Shown here: positions 47,181 through 58,340 of the stretch, in pieces
How the letters are laid out: each line of letters starts with the position of its first letter
Position numbering within the stretch: the first letter of the stretch is position 1
Notes under the pieces: generated by a model
The model's input: the letters and a program-made list of their open reading frames with translations, nothing else
The model's database searches: none
What the model was told of the DNA's origin: nothing
Program-made: the position numbers and the translations under genes
Assembly (NCBI RefSeq): GCF_002251795.1
Contig: NZ_NOXU01000026.1
Location: 62,001-126,000 of the forward strand
Direction of reading: 5' to 3'
DNA length: 64,000 bases
DNA from: Niveispirillum lacus
Lineage (GTDB): Bacteria > Pseudomonadota > Alphaproteobacteria > Azospirillales > Azospirillaceae

Positions 47181-47924
47181 TTAAGGGGAAACTGTTCGCG
47201 CCAAGGTCGCCAGCCGCATCATTTCTGTATGGGCCTGCCCCACATCATAGACTGGCGCGGTGAAGGCAAGGCGAGCCGTATCGGCATCGGTGCGTAGATC
47301 CAGGCCGTCCGGGTCAAGGCCGGTCATGCACCAGCGACCGTGACCCTTGCCCAACAACGCTGTGGCATACAGGGCCAGGGCATCGGCATGGTCCTGGTTC
47401 ATGTGGGCGACGAGTTCGGCTTCCGCCCGTGCGAGATATTCGCATGCAGTGGCGGGGAGGCACAGATCATCAGTCGACAGCGTATGGATGCGCCCGAAAC
47501 CGGCCACCAGATGCCCGTCCGTGATGACAACCCGCCACAAACCAAAATCGCCGAAGCCGGCATAGGTTACGGCGGTTGGCTGCCGGGTCAGGAAACGGCG
47601 CAGGAGGGCGGGGTCCTGGGTCGGTTCCGCTTGTCCACGTACGGACAGCCGCGGACCGGTCAGCCGGTCGATATGGCCGGCAGTGCCGTCGAACAGCAAG
47701 CCGCAGCGTGGGTCGACCAGCAGGTTGCGTGTATGTTCGGCCAGACCGGAAATCAGCAGTAAGGGGCATCCGTCCGTTGCAAATCCGATCAGGGCAAGGG
47801 AGGGGCTGGGCCAGCCCGCACGATCGCCGCCCGGACGGGTCAGCGTTGCCAAGGTTGCCTGGGTACAGCCCCGCATCAGGTTCCGCGCACCTGTTGCATG
47901 ACTTTTCTGATCGTTATCCGCCAT
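47181..47924 (-). CDS. HugZ-like FMN-binding split-barrel protein with DUF2470 domain
   Basis: This 247-residue cytosolic protein has an N-terminal pyridoxamine-phosphate-oxidase-like barrel (about 10-145) and a C-terminal DUF2470 domain with the signature VAHMNQDHADALALYA. The same layout occurs in HugZ/HutZ proteins involved in heme degradation, but many members bind FMN or have unknown roles. It lies 74 bp behind the GNAT gene on the same strand, so it may belong to the amine-oxidation array or be separate. Confidence 0.8.
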   Translation of the reverse strand: MADNDQKSHATGARNLMRGCTQATLATLTRPGGDRAGWPSPSLALIGFATDGCPLLLISGLAEHTRNLLVDPRCGLLFDGTAGHIDRLTGPRLSVRGQAEPTQDPALLRRFLTRQPTAVTYAGFGDFGLWRVVITDGHLVAGFGRIHTLSTDDLCLPATACEYLARAEAELVAHMNQDHADALALYATALLGKGHGRWCMTGLDPDGLDLRTDADTARLAFTAPVYDVGQAHTEMMRLATLARTVSP

Positions 47925-47998
47925 GATCTTTTGCCATCCCCTGTCATTTGCCAGAGGGTGGGCGAAACCGGAAAGGTTGGGAAGGGGGCTGCTTGCCG

Positions 47999-48541
47999 CT
48001 ACCCGATTGATTTGCGCATGGGTACAAATGGGATGACGTGACCGTCGGGCAGATGCTCGGTATGTGTGCCTGTCGCGATGAAACCCAGGGCGAGGTAAAG
48101 CGATACGCCGGGTAACGTTGCCATCAACTCAAGGCTTTTGAACCCTTCCGACAGTGCTGCCTGTTCAGCAGCACGCATCATCCGACTAGCGAGACCGCGC
48201 CGTGCAAAGGCAGGGTCAACGAAAAAGGCCCGGATTTTGGCTGCGTCAGTGACAGGGTTCAGTAGCTCAGCCGAACGCCCTGCCGCCTGATCCCCGCCGA
48301 ACAGTGTCCGGCGCCGACTCCACCCGCCACAGGCGGCATAACATTCGCCGACCAGGACGGTGAAGTAGGTGCCATCGGCAATCAACGTGCCGTCAATGCC
48401 GAAGATCGCCTTCAGTGACGCATCGATCTGGTCGGTGCTGTAATGGTCCCGGCTGAGATCGCGCACGGACCGTTCCACCAGCCTCTCCAGCGCCGGTCGA
48501 TCTGCGGGCGTGGCAAGACGCAGAACGGGTTCATTCGCCAT
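47999..48541 (-). CDS. GNAT-family N-acetyltransferase
   Basis: This 180-residue acetyltransferase contains the acetyl-CoA motif A region (IRAFFVDPAFARRGLASRMM) followed by AAEQAALSEGFKSLELMATL and a C-terminal LYLALGFIATG, the typical GNAT pattern. It starts two bp after the cytochrome c stop, so cotranscription with the amine oxidase genes is very likely. It may acetylate an amine substrate or product in the cytosol, but this is inference from position. Confidence 0.9.
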   Translation of the reverse strand: MANEPVLRLATPADRPALERLVERSVRDLSRDHYSTDQIDASLKAIFGIDGTLIADGTYFTVLVGECYAACGGWSRRRTLFGGDQAAGRSAELLNPVTDAAKIRAFFVDPAFARRGLASRMMRAAEQAALSEGFKSLELMATLPGVSLYLALGFIATGTHTEHLPDGHVIPFVPMRKSIG

Positions 48542-48543
48542 GG

Positions 48544-48957
48544 TTACTGCCGCATCCCCTTCACATCCTCGGGCGTTACGACATCCTTATAGCCGTTGCC
48601 GAAATGTGTGCGGACATAATTGACGACAGCGGCCACCTGTTCATCCGACAGATAGGCGAAGGCCGGCATCGCCTTCTGCCCATTGACGACCAGATGCACG
48701 GGATAGGTCCCGGCCTCCAGGTTGGTGTTGGCGGCAAGGGCCGGATAGGCCCCGGCCCCGGTCGCCCCTTTGCCGTCGGGCATGTGACAGCCCTGACAGA
48801 TCGCGTGATAGAGCTGCTCGCCGTTTTGATAGGCGAAACGGCGGGCATCGGCAAAGTCGCTGCTCTGCGCATCCGTGCTCTGGGCACCGGCAGGACCAGA
48901 GGCCGCCAGAGCGGCCAGGAACAGGGCAGCGATTGACAGTGGCTTGACCATGCGCAT
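48544..48957 (-). CDS. Periplasmic class I cytochrome c
   Basis: This 137-residue protein has a signal peptide (residues 1-25, cleavage near AGA-QS) and a single heme site CQGCH at 54-58. The likely distal ligand is Met97 in KAMPAF. AGGGAG precedes the ATG. It lies 17 bp downstream of the flavin amine oxidase gene. For related exported flavin amine oxidases such as NicA2, a neighbouring cytochrome c is the physiological electron acceptor, so the same role is inferred here. Confidence 0.94.
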   Translation of the reverse strand: MRMVKPLSIAALFLAALAASGPAGAQSTDAQSSDFADARRFAYQNGEQLYHAICQGCHMPDGKGATGAGAYPALAANTNLEAGTYPVHLVVNGQKAMPAFAYLSDEQVAAVVNYVRTHFGNGYKDVVTPEDVKGMRQ

Positions 48958-48974
48958 GGTCTTTCTCCCTCTCA

Positions 48975-50585
48975 TCATTTCGCAACAACGCGCTGGTGAA
49001 GTCGACCAATGGCGTCCAGTGCGGACAGAACCGCCCCCTCCTGCCAAGCCGGCAGATAGGAAACATGTTCACCGGCCAGCAGGATGCGCCCGTCGATCTG
49101 GCACATATTCTTGTAATGCTCGGCCCGCTTGGCCGCCGTCCAGGACCCGAAACAGCCCAGAGTCCAGGGCACGCGGTGCCAAGCGACCGCCACACCATTA
49201 TCGAATTCTTGTCGATATTGAGGGTGGATCTGCGCGCCGAACTCAACGCATTTCTTCACCCTTTCCTCCGGCGCCATGGCGGCGAATTCATAGGCGAATG
49301 GACCCCAGGGATAGGCCCCCAGCAGTACGCCCTTGCCCGGCTGGGCAAAACGGCTATTGGGGTAGGCGATCAGAGAGATGGGCAGGTCGGTATAGGTGAT
49401 ACCGCCATAGATCTCCTCATCCTCTTCCCAGAAGCGGCGCTTGAACTGCAAGCCCACCTTGAACGCCGCCTCATAGGGCAGGGCGTTGATGGCGGCGTCC
49501 ATGTCGGACGATACGTTCTTCTTGATCTGCGACAGGATGGAGGCGGGAATGGTGCACAGGCACCAGTCGGCCTTGGCCGTCTTAACGGCGCCGCCAGCCT
49601 TGGTATCGGTGTAGGTAACCGTGACGCCCCCCGAATCCTGCTGAATCTCGGTAACCTTGGCGTTATAGGTGATCTTGTCCTTCACCTTCGCGGCCAGGGC
49701 CAGGGGGCCGGCATCCATGCCGCCTTCCGGCTGGAACAAGGCTGTCTGGAATTCGTACCCCGAACCTGTTCCGATGGCCCGCCAAAGGCCGGATTGCAGA
49801 AGTTGCGAGAACTCGATGGGTTTGGAGAAGACGGGTTCGCCCGACAGACCGCCGCCGGGGTCCTTCTCAAAGCCGCGTCGGTTGGAGGTCTCGGCATTGG
49901 CCTTATAGGCATAGTTGTCATCCAGGGCGCCCCAGTCCTGCATGGCCTCCAGCAGCTTTTCCTGGTCTTCCTTGGTAACAAAGCCGTCCAGCCCGCCCTT
50001 GTGCCCCAGCTTGGACAAAAGCTCGGCCACATGGCCGTTGAAATCGGCCAGCACATGGCGATAGCGCTGCGGCTTGCCGTCAAAGGCATTCTTGGAATGA
50101 ACATAGGCGTTGTAATTGACCTGGAAAAACGGCTCCAGCTTTACGCCCAGCTCACGGTAATAGTGCATGACAGCGCGATGATGGTATGGCACGCGCCAGG
50201 GTCCAGGATTTAGGTAATGCCCCTTGTCGAACCCCACTTTCTGTGTGAAGCCGCCCAACTCGGTATAGGTGTCGCCGCCGCGCAGCGTCCAGGCGCGACC
50301 ACCGGCCTTTTCCCGGTATTCTAGCACCTGCACCTTGTACCCAGCCTTGCCCAGTTCGTAGGCTGCCACCAGCCCGGCCCAACCGGCACCCAGGATCAGT
50401 ACCGAGGCACCCTTGGGCGCACCGGATAGGCTGGGCGGCCCTGCAAACGGGCTTTCTGCCGCATAACCCAGCGACGTCGCCGCCTGATACATGACGGAGC
50501 TGCCCGCGGCCGTACCGATCATGGCCAGCAACTCGCGCCGCGTCATGCGGGCACGAGGGGGCATATTGTTCATTGCAACCATCAT
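48975..50585 (-). CDS. Tat-exported FAD-dependent amine oxidase/dehydrogenase
   Basis: This 536-residue flavoprotein of the monoamine oxidase superfamily oxidises an amine or amino acid to an imine. The N-terminus has a twin-arginine signal (MTRRELLAMIG, Arg16-Arg17). The FAD Rossmann motif VLILGAGWAGLVAAYELGKA with Glu89, then GGRAW (95-99), and the C-terminal FAD motif RILLAGEHVSYLPAWQEGAV are all intact. Adjacent ATGs at 50585, 50582 and 50573 are possible; GAGG favours 50582. The cytochrome c gene follows at 17 bp and the TonB receptor precedes it. The substrate is unknown. Confidence 0.92.
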   Translation of the reverse strand: MMVAMNNMPPRARMTRRELLAMIGTAAGSSVMYQAATSLGYAAESPFAGPPSLSGAPKGASVLILGAGWAGLVAAYELGKAGYKVQVLEYREKAGGRAWTLRGGDTYTELGGFTQKVGFDKGHYLNPGPWRVPYHHRAVMHYYRELGVKLEPFFQVNYNAYVHSKNAFDGKPQRYRHVLADFNGHVAELLSKLGHKGGLDGFVTKEDQEKLLEAMQDWGALDDNYAYKANAETSNRRGFEKDPGGGLSGEPVFSKPIEFSQLLQSGLWRAIGTGSGYEFQTALFQPEGGMDAGPLALAAKVKDKITYNAKVTEIQQDSGGVTVTYTDTKAGGAVKTAKADWCLCTIPASILSQIKKNVSSDMDAAINALPYEAAFKVGLQFKRRFWEEDEEIYGGITYTDLPISLIAYPNSRFAQPGKGVLLGAYPWGPFAYEFAAMAPEERVKKCVEFGAQIHPQYRQEFDNGVAVAWHRVPWTLGCFGSWTAAKRAEHYKNMCQIDGRILLAGEHVSYLPAWQEGAVLSALDAIGRLHQRVVAK

Positions 50586-50620
50586 CGCCTCAATGGGAAA
50601 TCGGGACGCAATCCCTCAAG

Positions 50621-50650
50621 CACCGCCCCCGGATCGAACCGGGGGCGGTG
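50621..50650 (-). other. Strong hairpin between the TonB receptor and flavin oxidase genes
   Basis: A perfect 12-bp stem (CACCGCCCCCGG at 50621-50632, CCGGGGGCGGTG at 50639-50650) with a 6-base loop and no U-run. Without a U-tract it is more likely a 3' stabiliser or partial attenuator that lets the receptor and the enzyme be made in different amounts from one transcript. Confidence 0.65.
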
Positions 50651-50730
50651 AAGGTCGAGATGACAGGGATCACTTGAAAATCCGGGGACGGACAGGGATG
50701 GGCCCGCCGCCCCCGTTACGCACCGCAGGA

Positions 50731-53175
50731 TCAGAACTTGACGGTCACACGGGCATAATACATGCCACCGTTGTACCCCATGGGTGAGGTGTCGGGATAA
50801 ACCTGACCCACGGCATAACCACCACCAGCCAGGGCATCGACCTTGTCCGGGTAATTGTCGAACATGTTCTGCACGCCGATGGCGAAGTTGATGTCCTCAT
50901 AGACATCATAGGAAACTTCGGTGTCGAACAGCCATTCGGACCCGAAGGTCTTGGCATAGTTGGCCGTGTCGGTGAACTTGCTATAGTAGCTTGCACGGCC
51001 AAGGATGGAGAAGGCGCCCAGCGTATATTGGGCGGAGAAATTGCCGCGGAATTTCGGCAACTGCTTCTCCAGGTCGGCCTTGCGCGTATCATCGATCACG
51101 GCGGTGTTACGCTTGGTCACCTTGGTCTTGTTGTAGTTAAGGGCTGCTGTCAGATCGACCTTGCCCTCACCCGCCGGGACCGAGGTGTTGGCCACAAAGT
51201 CGACGCCCTGGGTGCGGGTATCGAAGGAATTGGTAAAGTAGTTGACTGCACCCAGCGTGTTGGCACCCGGAACGCCCAGGGCCGCCAGCCGGATCTTGTC
51301 AGCATCTGTCGGGTTGAAGTCACCCGACAGGGCGATACGGTCTTCAACCTTGATGTTATAATAGTCGATGGTGACGTTGATATCGGCCAGATCGGCGACG
51401 ATACCGCCGGCGAAATTGGTGCTCTTTTCTTCAGACAGCGGCTGCGCACCGAAATACTGCGCCACCAGGCTGGCGGCCGGATAGGTGCCACGCGCCACCG
51501 GGCTGGAACTGCCGGCCGGGAAGAAGGTTTGTACTGACGATGTCTGTGACTGGCCGGGTGTGGGCGCACGGAAACCGGTATTGACCGAACCACGGACGGC
51601 AAAGCTGTCGGTGATGTCGTAACGGCTGCTGAGCTTCCAGTTGAAGGTGGAGCCGAAAAAGTCGAAATCCTCATACCGGGCGGCGACGCCAACCGTGAAG
51701 CTGTCGGTGACGTCACCTTCCATGTCGGCATAGAAGGCGATGTTGTCGCGCTTGAACTCGCCCGAATCCTCTGGACGGAAGCCGGGATAGCCGTTGGACC
51801 CGATGGGCAGGGCCGCGGGCAGCCGGGTGCGGAAATCGATGAACGAAGCGTAGGGGCCGACCGTGTAGGAGGCCGGGTCGCCAGGGCCGATTTCATACAG
51901 TTCGCGGCGGAACTCCGTACCCACTGCGATGTTCAGCGGGGTGGCCCAGCCGATTTCCACCGGATAGGACAGATCGACGTTGAAGTTCTCTTCTTCCTGA
52001 ACCAGCCGCCCGACATAGAATTCACGCGGACTTGCCGGACCCAGCGACGGGTTGACGGTATTCTTCAGTTCGTAATCAATCTGACTGCGCCCGAACGACC
52101 CGGACATGCTGTACACCAGACCGCTTTCCAATTCATGCTTGAAACCACCGACGATGGAGGCGTCCTTCACGTCGCCGTAGAAGCGCGGCGTGAAGCCCAG
52201 CGGAAACCATTCGGTGAAGCGGAAACCATCCGGATCACCCGCCACGGGAAGGGTCGGGCCATTCACAGCGTGTGTCAGGCTCGGCGGGCGATAGTAGAAG
52301 GACCCATTAGACTTCGACGCACCATAATTACCGAACAGGAAGATTGAGGTGCTTTCAGTCAGCTCGATGCCGGAATTAACGAAAACGCGCGTCGCCTCCG
52401 CATCCGGGTCACCCCAGTTCATGGCAAGATCGGTCTTGGCAGCCGGCGCGCGCGGGTCCTGGACGCCGCGGTTGGTGGGGTCGCCCTGGCTGTATTCAGC
52501 CGACAGGTTGAAGAAACCATTGGGGCCCAGCGGCAGACCGACATTGGCCGCAAATTTGGCATTGTCGCCGTCACCTTCATAGGTGGAGCCATATTGGATC
52601 GTGGCTGAACCCCCTTCCGATGCGTCTTTGAGCTGGAAATTCATCACGCCGGCAATGGCGTCCGAGCCGTACTGGGCGGCGGCGCCGTCACGCAGCACCT
52701 CTACCTGTTTAATGGCAATGGCCGGGATCTGTGACAGGTCGGACGCCTGGGCACCCGCTGCCAGCGCGCCACCGGACAATTGCACCAGGGCCGACCGGTG
52801 ACGTCGCTTGCCATTCACCAGGATCAGGGTCTGGTCCGGCGGTAGACCGCGCAGGGTCGGCGGACGCACGAAGGTAGAGCCATCGGAGATACCGTTGCGG
52901 CTGACATTAAAGGAAGGAACCAGGCTGCGCAGGATATCATTGGTATCGCTAAAAGCCTGCTTTTCCAGATCACCCGCCCCCAGAACATCGATGGGCGCGA
53001 GGCTTTCGGTCGCGGTGCGGTTGGCCACGCGCGTACCGGTCACAATGATTTCCTCAATACCGTCGACCGGCTGGGCCATGGCCGACATGGGCAGCAGGCT
53101 GGTCGTGCACAGGATGCCGAATGCGACCTTCCGCACGGATGCGCGCTTGGCCGGCTTGCTGTTATTTACCTTCAT
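50731..53175 (-). CDS. TonB-dependent outer-membrane receptor 1
   Basis: This 814-residue receptor has a signal peptide ending near AMA-QP, then a TonB-box-like EEIIVTGTR, a plug domain (about 55-170, with FVRPPTLRGLPPDQTLILVN and QVEVLRDGAAAQYGSDAIAG) and a 22-strand type barrel ending in Phe (ARVTVKF). The start ATG at 53175 has AGGGGA upstream. It is paralogous to the receptor at 55797-58340. Position between ridA and the flavin amine oxidase suggests that it imports the amine substrate. Confidence 0.95.
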   Translation of the reverse strand: MKVNNSKPAKRASVRKVAFGILCTTSLLPMSAMAQPVDGIEEIIVTGTRVANRTATESLAPIDVLGAGDLEKQAFSDTNDILRSLVPSFNVSRNGISDGSTFVRPPTLRGLPPDQTLILVNGKRRHRSALVQLSGGALAAGAQASDLSQIPAIAIKQVEVLRDGAAAQYGSDAIAGVMNFQLKDASEGGSATIQYGSTYEGDGDNAKFAANVGLPLGPNGFFNLSAEYSQGDPTNRGVQDPRAPAAKTDLAMNWGDPDAEATRVFVNSGIELTESTSIFLFGNYGASKSNGSFYYRPPSLTHAVNGPTLPVAGDPDGFRFTEWFPLGFTPRFYGDVKDASIVGGFKHELESGLVYSMSGSFGRSQIDYELKNTVNPSLGPASPREFYVGRLVQEEENFNVDLSYPVEIGWATPLNIAVGTEFRRELYEIGPGDPASYTVGPYASFIDFRTRLPAALPIGSNGYPGFRPEDSGEFKRDNIAFYADMEGDVTDSFTVGVAARYEDFDFFGSTFNWKLSSRYDITDSFAVRGSVNTGFRAPTPGQSQTSSVQTFFPAGSSSPVARGTYPAASLVAQYFGAQPLSEEKSTNFAGGIVADLADINVTIDYYNIKVEDRIALSGDFNPTDADKIRLAALGVPGANTLGAVNYFTNSFDTRTQGVDFVANTSVPAGEGKVDLTAALNYNKTKVTKRNTAVIDDTRKADLEKQLPKFRGNFSAQYTLGAFSILGRASYYSKFTDTANYAKTFGSEWLFDTEVSYDVYEDINFAIGVQNMFDNYPDKVDALAGGGYAVGQVYPDTSPMGYNGGMYYARVTVKF

Positions 53176-53369
53176 GAGAGGTCCCCTGTTCAACTCGGTT
53201 GTTTGGTTCCTTCCTCCTCGGTTGCGCTTCTTCCCATTGATGGTCCCTTTTGCGGGACACTTTGCCGGGGCCCGGTCCCCGCCGCCGGTCTTCCGGTCAT
53301 GCGAGCCCCCCGTCCCCGTCCCCCACCGGCCCCTACCCGTGGGGACGGCAGCGGTTCGTTGAGAACCGA

Positions 53370-53410
53370 AAGGGCTGTTCGGGGGCTTTCCCATTCCCCC
53401 ACCAGCCCTT
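53370..53410 (-). other. Stem-loop between ridA and the TonB receptor gene
   Basis: AAGGGCTG (53370-53377) pairs with CAGCCCTT (53403-53410), with an inner GGGGG/CCCCC pairing. On the minus strand it is followed by TTTCGG and a second small hairpin (CGGTTC/GAACCG, about 53352-53368). It may act as a leaky terminator six bases past the ridA stop. The rest of 53176-53369 holds no gene. Confidence 0.5.
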
Positions 53411-53415
53411 GCCGG

Positions 53416-53916
53416 TTATTGCTTAGCCTTGGCAGCCAGAACTTCGATTTCCACCAGCATGCCGGGAGAGACCAAGCCGGCGATCTGTACCGTGGACCGG
53501 GCCGGCTTGTTGGGCTGCTCCGGCGTGCCGAAGAACTTGGTATAACCGGCCATCATGCCGGCGAAATCCATTTTGCCTTCCTTGGCCGGGTCACCGACCA
53601 GATAGACATGCATCAGCACCACGTCGCCCATGGTCAAGCCCTGGGCCTTCAGGGTTTCCTGGATACGTGTCAGAACATTGACAGTCTGTGTTTCGGTATT
53701 GCCGAAGGATTCGATGCTGCCCGCGGGCGCATCCTTGTTCGCCACGGGCGGCACGGTGCCGGACAGGAAAAACAGGTCAGACCCGGCAGGCACCTGCACT
53801 GCCGCGGCAATGGGGAAGTTCGGCACATCTGTGCGCTTGATCTCGCGGGCCTCTTCCTTGTTGCAGGCTGTCAGCGCTGCCGCAAGGACCAGGAGACTAC
53901 CCAACCGCTTCAACAT
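53416..53916 (-). CDS. RidA-family imine deaminase as a lipoprotein
   Basis: RidA proteins hydrolyse reactive enamines/imines to keto products and ammonia. This 166-residue member is exported: residues 1-18 form a lipoprotein signal with lipobox LTAC (Cys18), followed by Asn, so outer-membrane sorting is expected. The RidA fold shows FFLSGTVP, the key Arg140 in PARSTVQIAGL, and Glu156/Glu158 in VEIEVLAA. GGAGG lies before the ATG. Cytosolic RidA is the norm, so a periplasmic version next to an exported amine oxidase is notable. Confidence 0.92.
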   Translation of the reverse strand: MLKRLGSLLVLAAALTACNKEEAREIKRTDVPNFPIAAAVQVPAGSDLFFLSGTVPPVANKDAPAGSIESFGNTETQTVNVLTRIQETLKAQGLTMGDVVLMHVYLVGDPAKEGKMDFAGMMAGYTKFFGTPEQPNKPARSTVQIAGLVSPGMLVEIEVLAAKAKQ

Positions 53917-53949
53917 TCTTCCTCCGCTATGGATGGGCCGGTGGCTGTG

Positions 53950-54165
53950 TCAGCCACGCACCGGCAAGGACAGGGGATGGACCAACCAGACCTTGCGGCC
54001 TTCATCCCAGGAGACACCGGAGAGAAGTTCCGGCGTGTTGACATTACCGGCCGGCGGCCGGGCCTGACGATCAGCAACCCGTGCTTTGGCAGCAACAAGA
54101 GCCTGTGGGGCCGCAATCACCCTCACGACATTTCTGACGGCGACCCGTACGGCATGTTTGGCCAT
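53950..54165 (-). CDS. Possible small unknown protein upstream of ridA
   Basis: A 71-codon frame begins MAKHAVRVAVRNVVRVIAAP and ends WLVHPLSLPVRG, 33 bases before ridA on the same strand. Third-position GC is only partly biased and there is no clear ribosome binding site. It is either a small conserved-context gene or non-coding leader. Confidence 0.25.
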   Translation of the reverse strand: MAKHAVRVAVRNVVRVIAAPQALVAAKARVADRQARPPAGNVNTPELLSGVSWDEGRKVWLVHPLSLPVRG

Positions 54166-54532
54166 GTCCACCTTCGTGTCTGTCGGCGGGGGATGAGCCG
54201 GCCCATTCTGGCCACTGCGTCGCCGCGAACCGCATCCCCCTGATAGGAAACAGCGTTTCAGCAACAACCGTGCCACGGCTGTGCGTGTGCGAAATCAAGG
54301 ATGCCGGTCCGGAAATCGATTGGACGAATGCTCAACAAAGCAGCAGGCTGCTATCAAAGAAGAAGTTCTGATGGATTTTAAGGCAAGGATGAATTTGAAA
54401 AAAGCAGAATGGTTAATTTGCTCTGAATGGCAGCACGTTTGGTGCCAATTTTTGGGGCAACGGCGATTAACCCCCGACATTCGTCGAGGGTAGGTAGGTC
54501 TGCGTGGCCTCTCTGTCAAGCCGTCCACGCTG
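54166..54532. other. Intergenic region, partly AT-rich
   Basis: From about 54340 to 54440 the sequence is AT-rich. It contains a 70-codon frame on the plus strand that I do not believe. A promoter for the minus-strand ridA array is expected here or just downstream, but I see no clear consensus. Confidence 0.35.
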
Positions 54533-55378
54533 TCAATTTCTCTCCCGTTCGGCAACCATCAGGGCGGGCTGGCTGACGGCGCGCTGCCAGTGCCGACGGC
54601 CCGGCACTTCCTGTGCAATAAACACATAACCTTCGGCCGCCAGTTGTTCTGGGCGCATGGGGAGATGATGCCGGTCATCCAGAAAGATTTCTTCCACCCC
54701 TGAGCCGCCTTGGCGCCGAACAGACAGGATCAGGTGGTAACCGCCATTGGCGGGCAGACGCACGATGGTAGCGCGTAAGGCCGCACGTGGGTACCCGCGG
54801 CGCAGCAGGCGTGCAATGGTGGTCATCACCACGTCGTCGCAATCGCCCGCCATGCCACGACCGGGTGTACCCAGGACTTCCCATCGGTCTTCCCTGTCCG
54901 CACGATACACAAGGTCATCGACCACTTGGCGGTGAACCATTAATGCCATCCCTAATGTGGCCTGGCCCGCATCCACCCTGTCGATACCGATTGACCTGAC
55001 GGCCTTTCCGCCCAGACTGGTGGCGCAACCGGGATCGCGGTCGCCGTAGGTCTGACAATAGGTACGGTACTGTGCCAGCGGTTCCATGTCGCCATTCCAG
55101 GCCAGGGCAAAGGCAGGCGCGTTGGCCATCAGCGCGGCACTGGCCAACAGCAAAAGCGCCAGAAATGGCGACCGGCGCCGTACCTTTTTGATCGCAAGAG
55201 ACAGATCTGGAGATAAAAAATCCTTGTGCAGAATAAATATTAATATCTTTGTAACCAATATCGAGAAAAAGAGATAATGAAAAGTCTCCCTTTGAAGAGG
55301 TTTTTGGCCAATTGATGTGGCTTCCGCTGCACCGCAACATAATCTATGTTGTGTTGCACATAAAAGATAGTGGTTCAT
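54533..55378 (-). CDS. LapG-like (BTLCP) transglutaminase-fold cysteine protease
   Basis: This is an exported cysteine protease of the bacterial transglutaminase-like family (PF06035/DUF920). The catalytic triad context is visible: AGDCDDVVMTTIARLLRRGYP (cysteine, split around the motif), GGYHLILSV (histidine) and FLDDRHHLP (aspartate). The signal peptide is KKVRRRSPFLALLLLASAAL, cleaved near AFA-LA. The start is unclear: the only ATG giving the full signal sequence is 55378, 65 codons earlier in AT-rich DNA. A TTG near 55265 is possible, and the ATG at 55129 would cut the signal. LapG members cleave surface adhesins under c-di-GMP control; the target here is unknown. Confidence 0.75.
   Translation of the reverse strand: MNHYLLCATQHRLCCGAAEATSIGQKPLQRETFHYLFFSILVTKILIFILHKDFLSPDLSLAIKKVRRRSPFLALLLLASAALMANAPAFALAWNGDMEPLAQYRTYCQTYGDRDPGCATSLGGKAVRSIGIDRVDAGQATLGMALMVHRQVVDDLVYRADREDRWEVLGTPGRGMAGDCDDVVMTTIARLLRRGYPRAALRATIVRLPANGGYHLILSVRRQGGSGVEEIFLDDRHHLPMRPEQLAAEGYVFIAQEVPGRRHWQRAVSQPALMVAERERN
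55335..55351. promoter_or_regulatory. Short perfect dyad near the protease gene
   Basis: CAACATA and TATGTTG, perfect 7-bp arms, are separated by ATC. The dyad lies in AT-rich DNA upstream of the protease signal sequence and could be an operator for the protease gene or the divergent receptor gene. Confidence 0.35.
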
Positions 55379-55796: not shown

Positions 55797-58340
55797 ATGA
55801 AAAAGCGGCTCCAGTACGTTCTTTTTTCCTCGGCATGCGCCATCGCAATGACAAGTTCAATAAGTTATGCAGCAGAAAGCCAAACGAGTTCTGAAAAATC
55901 GGGGGCGTCAACCGAAAGCATTCTGTTGGAACCGGTCGTTGTTACCGGTACTCGCCGTTATAACCGCACGGTGACACAGTCCGTTACGCCGATTGATGTA
56001 TTCACGTCGCAGGACCTGCTGCGCCAAGGCTCATCTGATACCAACTCATTGTTTCAGAATGTCATCCCGTCTTTCAGCGTACCACAGGCGGCCATTTCCA
56101 CGGGTTCGTCTTTCATCCGTCCTCCCAACCTGCGCGGCCTGCCGCCTGACCAGACGCTGGTCCTGATCAACAGCAAGCGCCGGCACCGGTCGGCGCTGGT
56201 CAATGTTGATGTGAGCGCTCTGTCCTTGCTCAGCCAAGCGGTGGATCTGTCCCAGATTCCGGCGATCGCGATCGACCGTGTGGAGGTTCTGCGCGATGGT
56301 GCGTCTGCCCAATATGGTTCCGACGCCATCGCGGGCGTGATCAACATTGCCCTCAAGAAGGCGAATTCAGGTTTCTCCGGACAGGCCCGTTATGGCCAGT
56401 TCTATGAAGGCGACGGTCGGGACTACCAGGTAGCACTCAATAACGGCTTTGCCCTGGGCGACAATGGTTTCCTGAATGTAAGCGCCGAATATGCCGAAAA
56501 TGGCGCCACCAGCCGTGGCACGCAGCGGCCCGGCGCCCTGCAACTGAGCCAGCAGCGCCCGGCGCTCAACATCCCTGATCCTGTCCAGAAATGGGGCAAG
56601 ACGGCGATGGAGGCAAAGCGCCTTTTCGCCAATGGCGAAATCGATCTGGACGGGTCGACGCTGTACTTTTTCGGGAATTATGGCCGCAGCGACGGGGAGC
56701 AGAATTTCAACTATCGTCAGCCCTTTGATACGACCAATTTTGCCCGCACGGCCCTGTTTGGGGTGACCTATTATCTCGACCAACTGCCGAACGGCAACCG
56801 CAACGCGGCTGGTGCGACCTTTGATTTCACCAAGATGTTTCCGGCAGGCTTCACGCCGATCTTCTCGGGGAAAATTGAGGATTTGTCGGAGACCGTCGGC
56901 TATCGCGGCACGGCGGGTGAACTGACATATGACGTTTCGGCCAGCTATGGCCAGAATCAGCTGCAATATTATCTGGATAATACCGTCAACCCGTCTTACG
57001 GACCGCAGAGCCCGACCAGCTTTTATCTGGGCAAGCTGCGCCAAAGCGAGGTGACCTTGAACGCGGATGCCAGCTATCCGGTCGAGGTCGGTTTTGCCAG
57101 TCCGCTGAACATTGCCCTAGGGGCAGAGTATCGGCGCGATACCTATGAAGTGGGCCTTGGCGATCGTGCGTCCTGGAATGCCGGTCCCTTTGTGCGGCAG
57201 GTGGTGCAGCGGCCTGACAGTTCGACCTTTACGGTCATCAGTTCTGTCGGTTCCAACGGCAGCGTCGGCTTCGGCCCCGATAATGCCGGGTCAAGTTCCC
57301 GCCGCAGCTATGCCGGCTATGTTGATCTTGAAACCGACGTGACGGACACGCTGACGATTGGTGCCGCAGCCCGGTATGAGGATTTCAACACCTTTGGCTC
57401 CACTGCCAACGTCAAGGGTTCAGCGCGGTATGAAGTGTCTCCGGATGTCGCAATCCGAGGCGCTGCCAGCACGGGCTTCCATGCCCCCACGCCCGGCCAG
57501 ACCAACGTCAACAATGTCCTCTTGAGCTTCATTGCCGGGAGCACGACCCCGGTGCAGACTGGTACTTTTGCCGTGAATCACCCGGCCGCCGTCTATTTTG
57601 GGGCTGTGCCCGTGAAACCGGAGAAATCGGTCAACTTGACAGGCGGTGTTGTGGTGACGCCCGGCGGGGGATTTAACCTGACGATGGACTATTACAATAT
57701 CGTCATCCGTGATCGGCTGGGCCTGTCTCAGGCTTTTGTTGTCACGGACCGAGATCGGGCGGCGCTGACGGCACTGGGCGTCTCCAACGCCTTTGAACTT
57801 AACCGCCTGCAATATCTGACCAACGCCTTCAAGACGCGCACCCAGGGCATCGATGCTGTGTTGACGCACAGCTTTCACACCGACAATGCCGGTACGTTCA
57901 ATAGCTCTTTGAGCGTGAACTACAACAAGACAGATGTCCTGAAGCGCAATCCGGCGATTATCAGCAATGACCGGGTGGCCAATCTGGAAAAGACTTTGCC
58001 AAGAACCCGTGTGAACTTCACGGAAACCTGGGAGAATGGCCCGCTGTCGGTCCTTGCGCGGGTGAACTACTACGACAAATTCACTGTTACCTCGTCCAAT
58101 AACGCCGCACAGACTTTTGGGTCAGAAGTCATTGTTGACGTCGAAGCAACCTACGACGTGACCGAGCAGTTCAGCCTGTCGCTCGGCGTTCAGAATCTGT
58201 TCGACAACTATCCGGACAAGGATCTCAGATCAATCGACCGGTTCACCGGCCTGCCCGGGAATGGCAACCAGTATATTGACGCCTCTCCCTTCGGGTATAA
58301 TGGCGGCTTCTGGTATGTGAGGGCTGGTTGGAGTTTCTGA
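55797..58340 (+). CDS. TonB-dependent outer-membrane receptor 2
   Basis: This 847-residue receptor has a signal peptide ending near SYA-AE, TonB-box-like EPVVVTGTRR, a plug with FIRPPNLRGLPPDQTLVLIN and RVEVLRDGASAQYGSDAIAG, and a barrel ending in aromatic Phe (VRAGWSF). It is clearly paralogous to the receptor at 50731-53175. The first codons are AT-richer than the neighbours, hinting at a different history or weak expression. GGGGACAACGGGA precedes the start. The substrate is unknown; shared plug sequence suggests a related ligand class. Confidence 0.95.
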   Translation: MKKRLQYVLFSSACAIAMTSSISYAAESQTSSEKSGASTESILLEPVVVTGTRRYNRTVTQSVTPIDVFTSQDLLRQGSSDTNSLFQNVIPSFSVPQAAISTGSSFIRPPNLRGLPPDQTLVLINSKRRHRSALVNVDVSALSLLSQAVDLSQIPAIAIDRVEVLRDGASAQYGSDAIAGVINIALKKANSGFSGQARYGQFYEGDGRDYQVALNNGFALGDNGFLNVSAEYAENGATSRGTQRPGALQLSQQRPALNIPDPVQKWGKTAMEAKRLFANGEIDLDGSTLYFFGNYGRSDGEQNFNYRQPFDTTNFARTALFGVTYYLDQLPNGNRNAAGATFDFTKMFPAGFTPIFSGKIEDLSETVGYRGTAGELTYDVSASYGQNQLQYYLDNTVNPSYGPQSPTSFYLGKLRQSEVTLNADASYPVEVGFASPLNIALGAEYRRDTYEVGLGDRASWNAGPFVRQVVQRPDSSTFTVISSVGSNGSVGFGPDNAGSSSRRSYAGYVDLETDVTDTLTIGAAARYEDFNTFGSTANVKGSARYEVSPDVAIRGAASTGFHAPTPGQTNVNNVLLSFIAGSTTPVQTGTFAVNHPAAVYFGAVPVKPEKSVNLTGGVVVTPGGGFNLTMDYYNIVIRDRLGLSQAFVVTDRDRAALTALGVSNAFELNRLQYLTNAFKTRTQGIDAVLTHSFHTDNAGTFNSSLSVNYNKTDVLKRNPAIISNDRVANLEKTLPRTRVNFTETWENGPLSVLARVNYYDKFTVTSSNNAAQTFGSEVIVDVEATYDVTEQFSLSLGVQNLFDNYPDKDLRSIDRFTGLPGNGNQYIDASPFGYNGGFWYVRAGWSF

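Follow-up and report, generated by a model that had tools for sequence, protein, structure and literature searches.

An exported Rid protein beside a likely periplasmic L-amino acid dehydrogenase and a TonB-dependent receptor in Niveispirillum lacus

Introduction

The closest described counterpart of the locus reported here is the lao-cccA-ridA cluster of Gluconacetobacter diazotrophicus PAL5 (GDI2456-2454), for which cooperation of the three proteins was proposed in 2016 and the L-amino acid oxidase (LAAO) was predicted to be periplasmic (PMC5053998). Conservation of that cluster in Caulobacter and Xanthomonas was noted from a database, two Tn5 insertions in lao abolished indole-3-acetic acid (IAA) and lowered indolic products by as much as 95%, and mutants in cytochrome c maturation, with Lee 2004 as the source, retained 5% of IAA (PMC5053998). 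We analyzed a related cluster in a 64,000-nucleotide stretch of the Niveispirillum lacus genome (positions 62,001 to 126,000 of contig NZ_NOXU01000026.1), hereafter the window, which encodes a Rid protein, a TonB-dependent receptor, an LAAO-like flavoprotein, a cytochrome c and a GNAT-family protein. Our results suggest, with a probability that we put at about 0.6, that this locus is a periplasmic L-amino-acid dehydrogenase module with an exported Rid.

Among relatives of NicA2, a kinetic study published in 2025 showed that a Tat-exported oxidase with an operonic Sec cytochrome c marks a cytochrome-using dehydrogenase, and most of the Tat oxidoreductases lacking such a neighbour turned out to be oxidases (PMC12224317). 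Rid3 proteins, as defined in PMC4433059 and PMC5619798, were noted near FAD amine oxidases in a 2015 survey, which described the in vivo substrates of Rid1 to Rid3 as wholly unknown (PMC4433059); two of them, PSPTO_3006 and PFL_1385, act on imines from an L-amino acid oxidase (PMC5619798). As proposed here, a periplasmic LAAO is paired with a RidA-family partner in Chlamydomonas (LAO1 with LAO2/RIDA; PMC10805672, PMC5053998). That system is eukaryotic and peroxide-forming. Other Rid partners appear in papers on chitin oxidation and nicotine (PMC9537276, PMC7688666). In the openly licensed literature, we found no paper on an exported bacterial Rid in such a cluster, and none on a receptor together with an LAAO and a cytochrome. 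An earlier reading of this DNA from its letters alone (the sequence-only reading) had regarded an outer-membrane RidA tied to a substrate importer as new; the novelty is smaller than that, since the trio of oxidase, cytochrome and RidA was already published together with a proposal of cooperation (PMC5053998). With the core trio known, and the exported Rid and linked receptor less explored, what we add is the co-occurrence and linkage of Rid with LAAO and the pattern of Rid export.

Results

The five genes run along the minus strand from 53916 to 47999 in the following order.

53416..53916, minus strand: Rid3-like homologue of imine deaminases, carrying a lipoprotein signal (LTAC, Cys18); 166 aa, Pfam PF01042 (Ribonuc_L-PSP) at 3.6e-17
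50731..53175, minus strand: TonB-dependent receptor with a signal peptide; Pfam Plug at 6.8e-20, barrel at 1.2e-33
48975..50585, minus strand: Tat-exported LAAO-like flavin amine oxidoreductase, likely an L-amino acid dehydrogenase; Pfam Amino_oxidase at 1.2e-56, 2jae at 5.8e-92
48544..48957, minus strand: Sec-exported mono-heme cytochrome c, likely the electron acceptor; 137 aa, Pfam Cytochrome_CBB3 at 8.9e-14
47999..48541, minus strand: GNAT-family acetyltransferase; Pfam Acetyltransf_10 at 1e-9

The first four had been placed at 48544-53916 by the sequence-only reading, and all were found there with Pfam matches for each; the cytochrome gene does lie 17 bp behind the LAAO stop codon, and its product has one CxxCH and a Sec-type signal. 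The GNAT gene, which together with G+C-rich intergenic hairpins is an addition to that gene list, follows after a further 2 bp, and LAAO, cytochrome and GNAT form a tight block. The Rid-receptor and receptor-LAAO gaps measure 240 and 145 bp, respectively.

With an LAAO-type Tat flavoprotein, a cytochrome c and a Rid in one cluster, the locus has the content of lao-cccA-ridA, whereas here Rid comes first and carries a lipobox, a TonB receptor gene lies between Rid and LAAO, and a GNAT gene lies behind. Homology to GDI2456-2454 was established on short primer-encoded peptides alone, those from PMC5053998 fitting the window proteins, by eye, at YPSHGYF and QVIHPNY in the LAAO (exactly 45 residues apart), at NYVRSH in the cytochrome and at ASTIYL and KLGKID in Rid. 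The available text of PMC5053998 does not mention export of RidA; by the primer position, the core of the G. diazotrophicus protein starts 23 residues later than that of leaderless Rids, which is what a signal sequence would produce.

The flavoprotein carries the Tat-type motif TRRELLAMIG. Among solved structures it is closest to 2jae, an L-amino acid oxidase presumably from Rhodococcus opacus, of which residues 4-486 are covered. R131 is invariant and Y425 nearly invariant in 17 aligned relatives, and they align with an Arg and a Tyr of 2jae that we take to be its carboxylate binders. Full-length similarity and these two residues place the protein in the L-amino acid oxidase family, and amino acids are therefore the likely substrate. 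We rejected a general amine substrate on the same features, so the Tat flavin amine oxidoreductase of the sequence-only reading stands, and its "amines" should be L-amino acids.

A cytochrome gene lies directly behind the LAAO gene in 79 of the 80 named loci, which are the best 80 of 585 confirmed. The window pair, a Tat-signal oxidase and an adjacent Sec cytochrome c, has the published signature of cytochrome-c-using flavin amine dehydrogenases of the NicA2/Pnao type (PMC12224317, PMC9396064). The claimed NicA2-like use of cytochrome is consistent with this tandem, but the enzyme is LAAO-like, differing from the NicA2/Pnao type in substrate group and sequence, and Rid and a receptor are added here. 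Separately, three divergent LAAO loci (L259, L260 and L265) have a nearby reading frame with two CxxCH, suggesting di-heme cytochrome partners, and Novosphingobium sediminicola (L187) has two LAAO-cytochrome neighbours in tandem, with a cytochrome preceding the first LAAO.

The window Rid has PSPTO3006 (9.7e-44) and PFL1385 (7.3e-40) as its nearest solved relatives, and all 21 relatives aligned keep its catalytic Arg140; it was assigned to Rid3 on these matches. Both known proteins are imine deaminases in vitro (PMC5619798, PMC4433059). In contrast to the lipoprotein signal of the window Rid, PSPTO_3006-like proteins are leaderless and PFL_1385-like proteins have a Sec-like N-terminus.

Rid and LAAO occur together more often than expected by chance. 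In 398 genomes of the phylum, Rid was found in 25 (profile A2, E<=1e-25), LAAO in 27 (profile A1, E<=1e-100) and both in 24, with a Fisher p of 3.7e-34 that overstates the association because the genomes in the sets are not independent. All but one of the 26 Rid places lay within 4.1 kb of an LAAO, 24 of those 25 on the LAAO strand; the genomes with one of the two but not the other were G652 (a Rid fragment and no LAAO) and G429, G487 and G662 (LAAO and no Rid). Of the 21 Rids behind profile A2, 19 are LAAO-linked, and these searches therefore favour linked Rids, and the genome searches scored only some of the first-look candidates. Within the family (82 genomes), the 22 with LAAO were all among the 28 with Rid, and the window's own sequences, used as queries against 289 genomes of the class, gave Rid in 9, LAAO in 15 and both in 8. 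Among the named loci, which include Xanthomonas, Dyella, Mesorhizobium, Bradyrhizobium, Alteromonas, Pseudomonas, Variovorax and others, Rid was within 5 kb of LAAO in 44 of 80, or in 40 of the 66 with full flanks.

The gene order was kept closer to the window. Nine of the 11 genomes of the genus, N. lacus included, have the whole order Rid-receptor-LAAO-cytochrome-GNAT, with the other two split over contigs, and in another two genera (G341 and G362) the first four genes are retained without GNAT. Clustering of the four genes in related genomes, the check that the sequence-only reading had suggested, was thus observed. The Nitrospirillum amazonense group varies: cytochrome alone stands beside the LAAO nearest the window's (six regions read), a second LAAO is found in the order Rid-LAAO-cytochrome-receptor (six regions), and a third has Rid and receptor but no cytochrome (three regions).

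Export of Rid was called by reading N-termini and applying a simple hydrophobic-stretch rule. After deduplication, 105 distinct LAAO-linked Rids remained, 104 of them on the LAAO strand and 93 with an export signal. The 12 signal-less proteins, each starting MS.. and all from the G629 genus (Pseudomonas-like, judging by the PSPTO_3006-type Rid), are exactly those whose partner LAAO keeps RRE, carries charged residues within the central part of the Tat core, and is not followed by a cytochrome. Those members of the G629 genus in which the Tat core is intact do have exported Rids, and the cytochrome is likewise absent. Rid export and LAAO export therefore agree in 105 of 105 linked pairs. Six family Rids from genomes without a detected LAAO (L125-L130) have no recognisable signal. 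Two further kinds of Rid with Sec-like signals, not of the LAAO-linked type, were seen in the Niveispirillum group (L371-L374, L393, L397-L399).

The window Rid begins MLKRLGSLLVLAAALTAC/NKEE, and the claimed lipobox, LTAC, is present at residues 15-18 behind a short hydrophobic stretch, as in bacterial lipoproteins; lipoboxes were called with a custom pattern of these two elements. This pattern flagged 14 of the 105 linked Rids, among them one clear false positive (L176) and two that look doubtful by eye (L154 and L160), and a narrower version counted 12 Rids with 8 changes on the tree. Within the genus, the Rids of L086, L088, L089, L092 and L093 are Sec-like and lack a lipobox. Lipid anchoring was rejected as the defining novelty, being a minority trait that changed repeatedly and is absent from some congeners, and it appears to be a minor repeated variation on a conserved trait, which is export. 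For the outer-membrane, lipidated RidA that had been proposed as a new use of the family, the outer-membrane location, invisible in the sequence, is presumed.

The receptor has the plug and beta-barrel domains of TonB-dependent receptors, and its place between Rid and LAAO is conserved in the two further genera as well as in the 8 congeneric loci that were mapped whole. Counting receptors only when similar to the window's, we found one in 14 of the 80 named loci, and in 8 of the 80 a receptor of this subfamily lies directly upstream on the LAAO strand. These eight belong to Niveispirillum, Nevskiales, Rhodanobacteraceae and Novosphingobium lines. A profile of five LAAO-linked receptors from gammaproteobacteria, searched against the N. 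lacus genome, picked out three genes, at 709, 579 and 532 bits, with no other gene exceeding 114 bits. The 579- and 532-bit genes are the two receptors of the window, the second of which is listed here.

55797..58340, plus strand: second receptor belonging to this subfamily, probably with an accessory role; 532 bits against the profile, whose LAAO-linked receptors come from other orders

The best-scoring gene (709 bits, C14:288582, on another contig) has no LAAO or Rid in the 16 kb stretch read around it. The association of receptor and LAAO is therefore real but optional, and the subfamily is not exclusive to the LAAO system; the claimed receptor-fed module fits several lineages in which the receptor stands beside LAAO, without being general. 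To our knowledge, the Chlamydomonas LAO1 system has neither a cytochrome c nor a TonB receptor. A GNAT homologue was found near LAAO in 15 of 136 regions, from at least four lineages (Niveispirillum, G012 and G686, G688, and Novosphingobium).

Both long gaps of the cluster contain strong hairpins, in the window and in relatives, as predicted from the minimum-free-energy fold alone.

53364..53417, minus strand: G+C-rich hairpin beginning inside the Rid stop codon, possible terminator or attenuator
50621..50714, minus strand: two G+C-rich hairpins in the receptor-LAAO gap (50684-50714 and 50621-50650)

Hairpins comparable to the one after Rid were present in the 8 other loci folded, with a T tract following in one (L086), and the second receptor-LAAO hairpin (50621-50650) has no T tract behind it. 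A consensus scan for promoters and terminators picked none of the window's hairpins as a terminator and called no minus-strand promoter in 47900-54600; its totals were 1 promoter-like site against 1.8 expected and 5 terminator-like sites against 6.2 expected, none in the two long gaps. The hairpins between Rid, receptor and LAAO-cytochrome cast doubt on a single operon and make three transcripts, or attenuation, likelier than one common message. The "one minus-strand array" of the sequence-only reading holds for strand and clustering.

Beyond Rid, the window and several congeners have a gene for a transglutaminase-like cysteine protease (Peptidase_C93; 54533-55378, minus strand in the window), which is on the opposite side of the cluster in L090. 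Outside the window, contig C13 of the same genome (L324:49-3195) has a flavin amine oxidase-like frame (444 aa) followed by a thiamine-diphosphate decarboxylase that scores 269 bits to TIGR03394, under the family cut-off, making a second amine oxidase paired with a keto acid decarboxylase.

Discussion

From the gene content, signals, conservation, co-occurrence and catalytic Arg of Rid observed here, we infer a reaction, a substrate, an electron acceptor, a receptor cargo and a place for Rid. The Tat-exported flavoprotein would convert an L-amino acid to a 2-imino acid in the periplasm, the mono-heme cytochrome c would take its electrons to the respiratory chain in place of oxygen, and the exported, here lipid-anchored, Rid3-type protein would turn the imino acid into a 2-oxo acid and ammonium where it is produced. 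The receptor probably imports the substrate or its carrier (a peptide, or a complexed or bulky amino acid), and GNAT may act on substrate or product in the cytosol. Support for a dehydrogenase module comes from the likeness to 2jae, the near-constant cytochrome of the named loci, the signature described in PMC12224317, the G. diazotrophicus mutants, the Rid3 precedents, the linkage of Rid to LAAO, and the agreement in export. The module of the sequence-only reading is real and conserved, with its core trio published, its substrate sharpened to L-amino acids, and its receptor, GNAT and lipid anchor lineage-specific.

Several observations weigh against this interpretation. Rid export and the Tat core each change once on the LAAO tree, and their agreement is therefore a single natural experiment; in an independent-pairs test of the two traits, 1 pair was informative (p 1). 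The charge rule for the Tat core was settled after inspecting the sequences and revised four times, an earlier and stricter rule having left 10 discordant pairs and the two versions before it having misread others. In the genus, 9 of 9 linked Rids with inspected N-termini pass the export rule, and so do 10 of 67 unlinked Rid places (80 PF01042 matches minus 11 linked and two fragments), 8 of them convincingly by eye. Export is much enriched in LAAO-partner Rids, yet not restricted to them, and we ruled out that it is unique to linked Rids; the exported Rid that had been claimed as a new use is indeed exported with its oxidase, but exported Rids also occur unlinked. Nor is Rid indispensable, since it is absent within 5 kb of 26 of the 66 full-flank named LAAO loci. 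No cytochrome was found behind LAAO in 30 of the 105 linked pairs, including the 12 leaderless ones. Finally, the enzymes tested for cytochrome use were relatives of NicA2, from which this LAAO group is distant, and the LAAOs of other organisms use oxygen.

The last two points bear on an alternative in which the flavoprotein would be a periplasmic L-amino acid oxidase of the ordinary kind that uses oxygen, for ammonium scavenging or peroxide production, with the cytochrome as a peroxide sink or an unrelated neighbour. Characterised LAAOs reduce oxygen, and 18 of the 93 exported pairs have no cytochrome found behind LAAO, an arrangement that, among Tat oxidoreductases, mostly marks oxidases. 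The position of the cytochrome directly behind LAAO in nearly all named loci, together with the need for c-type cytochromes in G. diazotrophicus, makes this alternative unlikely (PMC12224317 for the oxidases, PMC5053998 for the cytochromes).

A different division of the locus would make both receptors, with a gene at 47181-47924 (minus strand), an iron/heme uptake locus merely abutting the LAAO-cytochrome-Rid trio. Most TonB receptors carry iron compounds, cytochrome c requires heme, hairpins lie between receptor and LAAO, and the gene in question encodes a HugZ/HutZ-like protein with PNPOx and DUF2470 domains, which suggest heme utilisation. However, this gene recurs in 1 of 136 regions (L087) and is probably unrelated, and receptors of the subfamily stand beside LAAO in several lineages and in varied arrangements; we regard a separate uptake locus as improbable.

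That the module serves as an auxin maker, turning tryptophan into indole-3-pyruvate in the periplasm as in G. diazotrophicus, instead of serving energy or nitrogen, accords with the loss of IAA in lao mutants (PMC5053998) and with Chlamydomonas LAO1 (PMC10805672), but a broad enzyme would take tryptophan anyway, the neighbourhood has no decarboxylase, and the genome's best TIGR03394 match is the sub-threshold one on the other contig, which leaves this quite improbable.

Taking the locus as an L-amino-acid dehydrogenase module, we also hold, more tentatively and with less than even confidence, a broader view: that this Rid3 lineage could work in the periplasm as the imine hydrolase dedicated to an L-amino acid:cytochrome c dehydrogenase that occurs across Proteobacteria, and that Niveispirillum and some other lineages may have gained their own TonB receptor subfamily and GNAT, with Rid fixed to a membrane beside a receptor-fed deamination line.

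Altogether, the linkage and the export pattern point to a testable source of Rid3 substrates, namely the 2-imino acids that an LAAO encoded next to Rid would form outside the inner membrane. If this lineage is indeed dedicated to imine hydrolysis in the periplasm, the Rid3 subfamily would have the in vivo substrate that it has so far lacked. Our results also suggest that cytochrome-c-using dehydrogenases include L-amino acid oxidases and not only nicotine-type enzymes, and such cytochrome-using LAAOs, if true, would bear on how bacteria make auxin, release nitrogen and respire amino acids.

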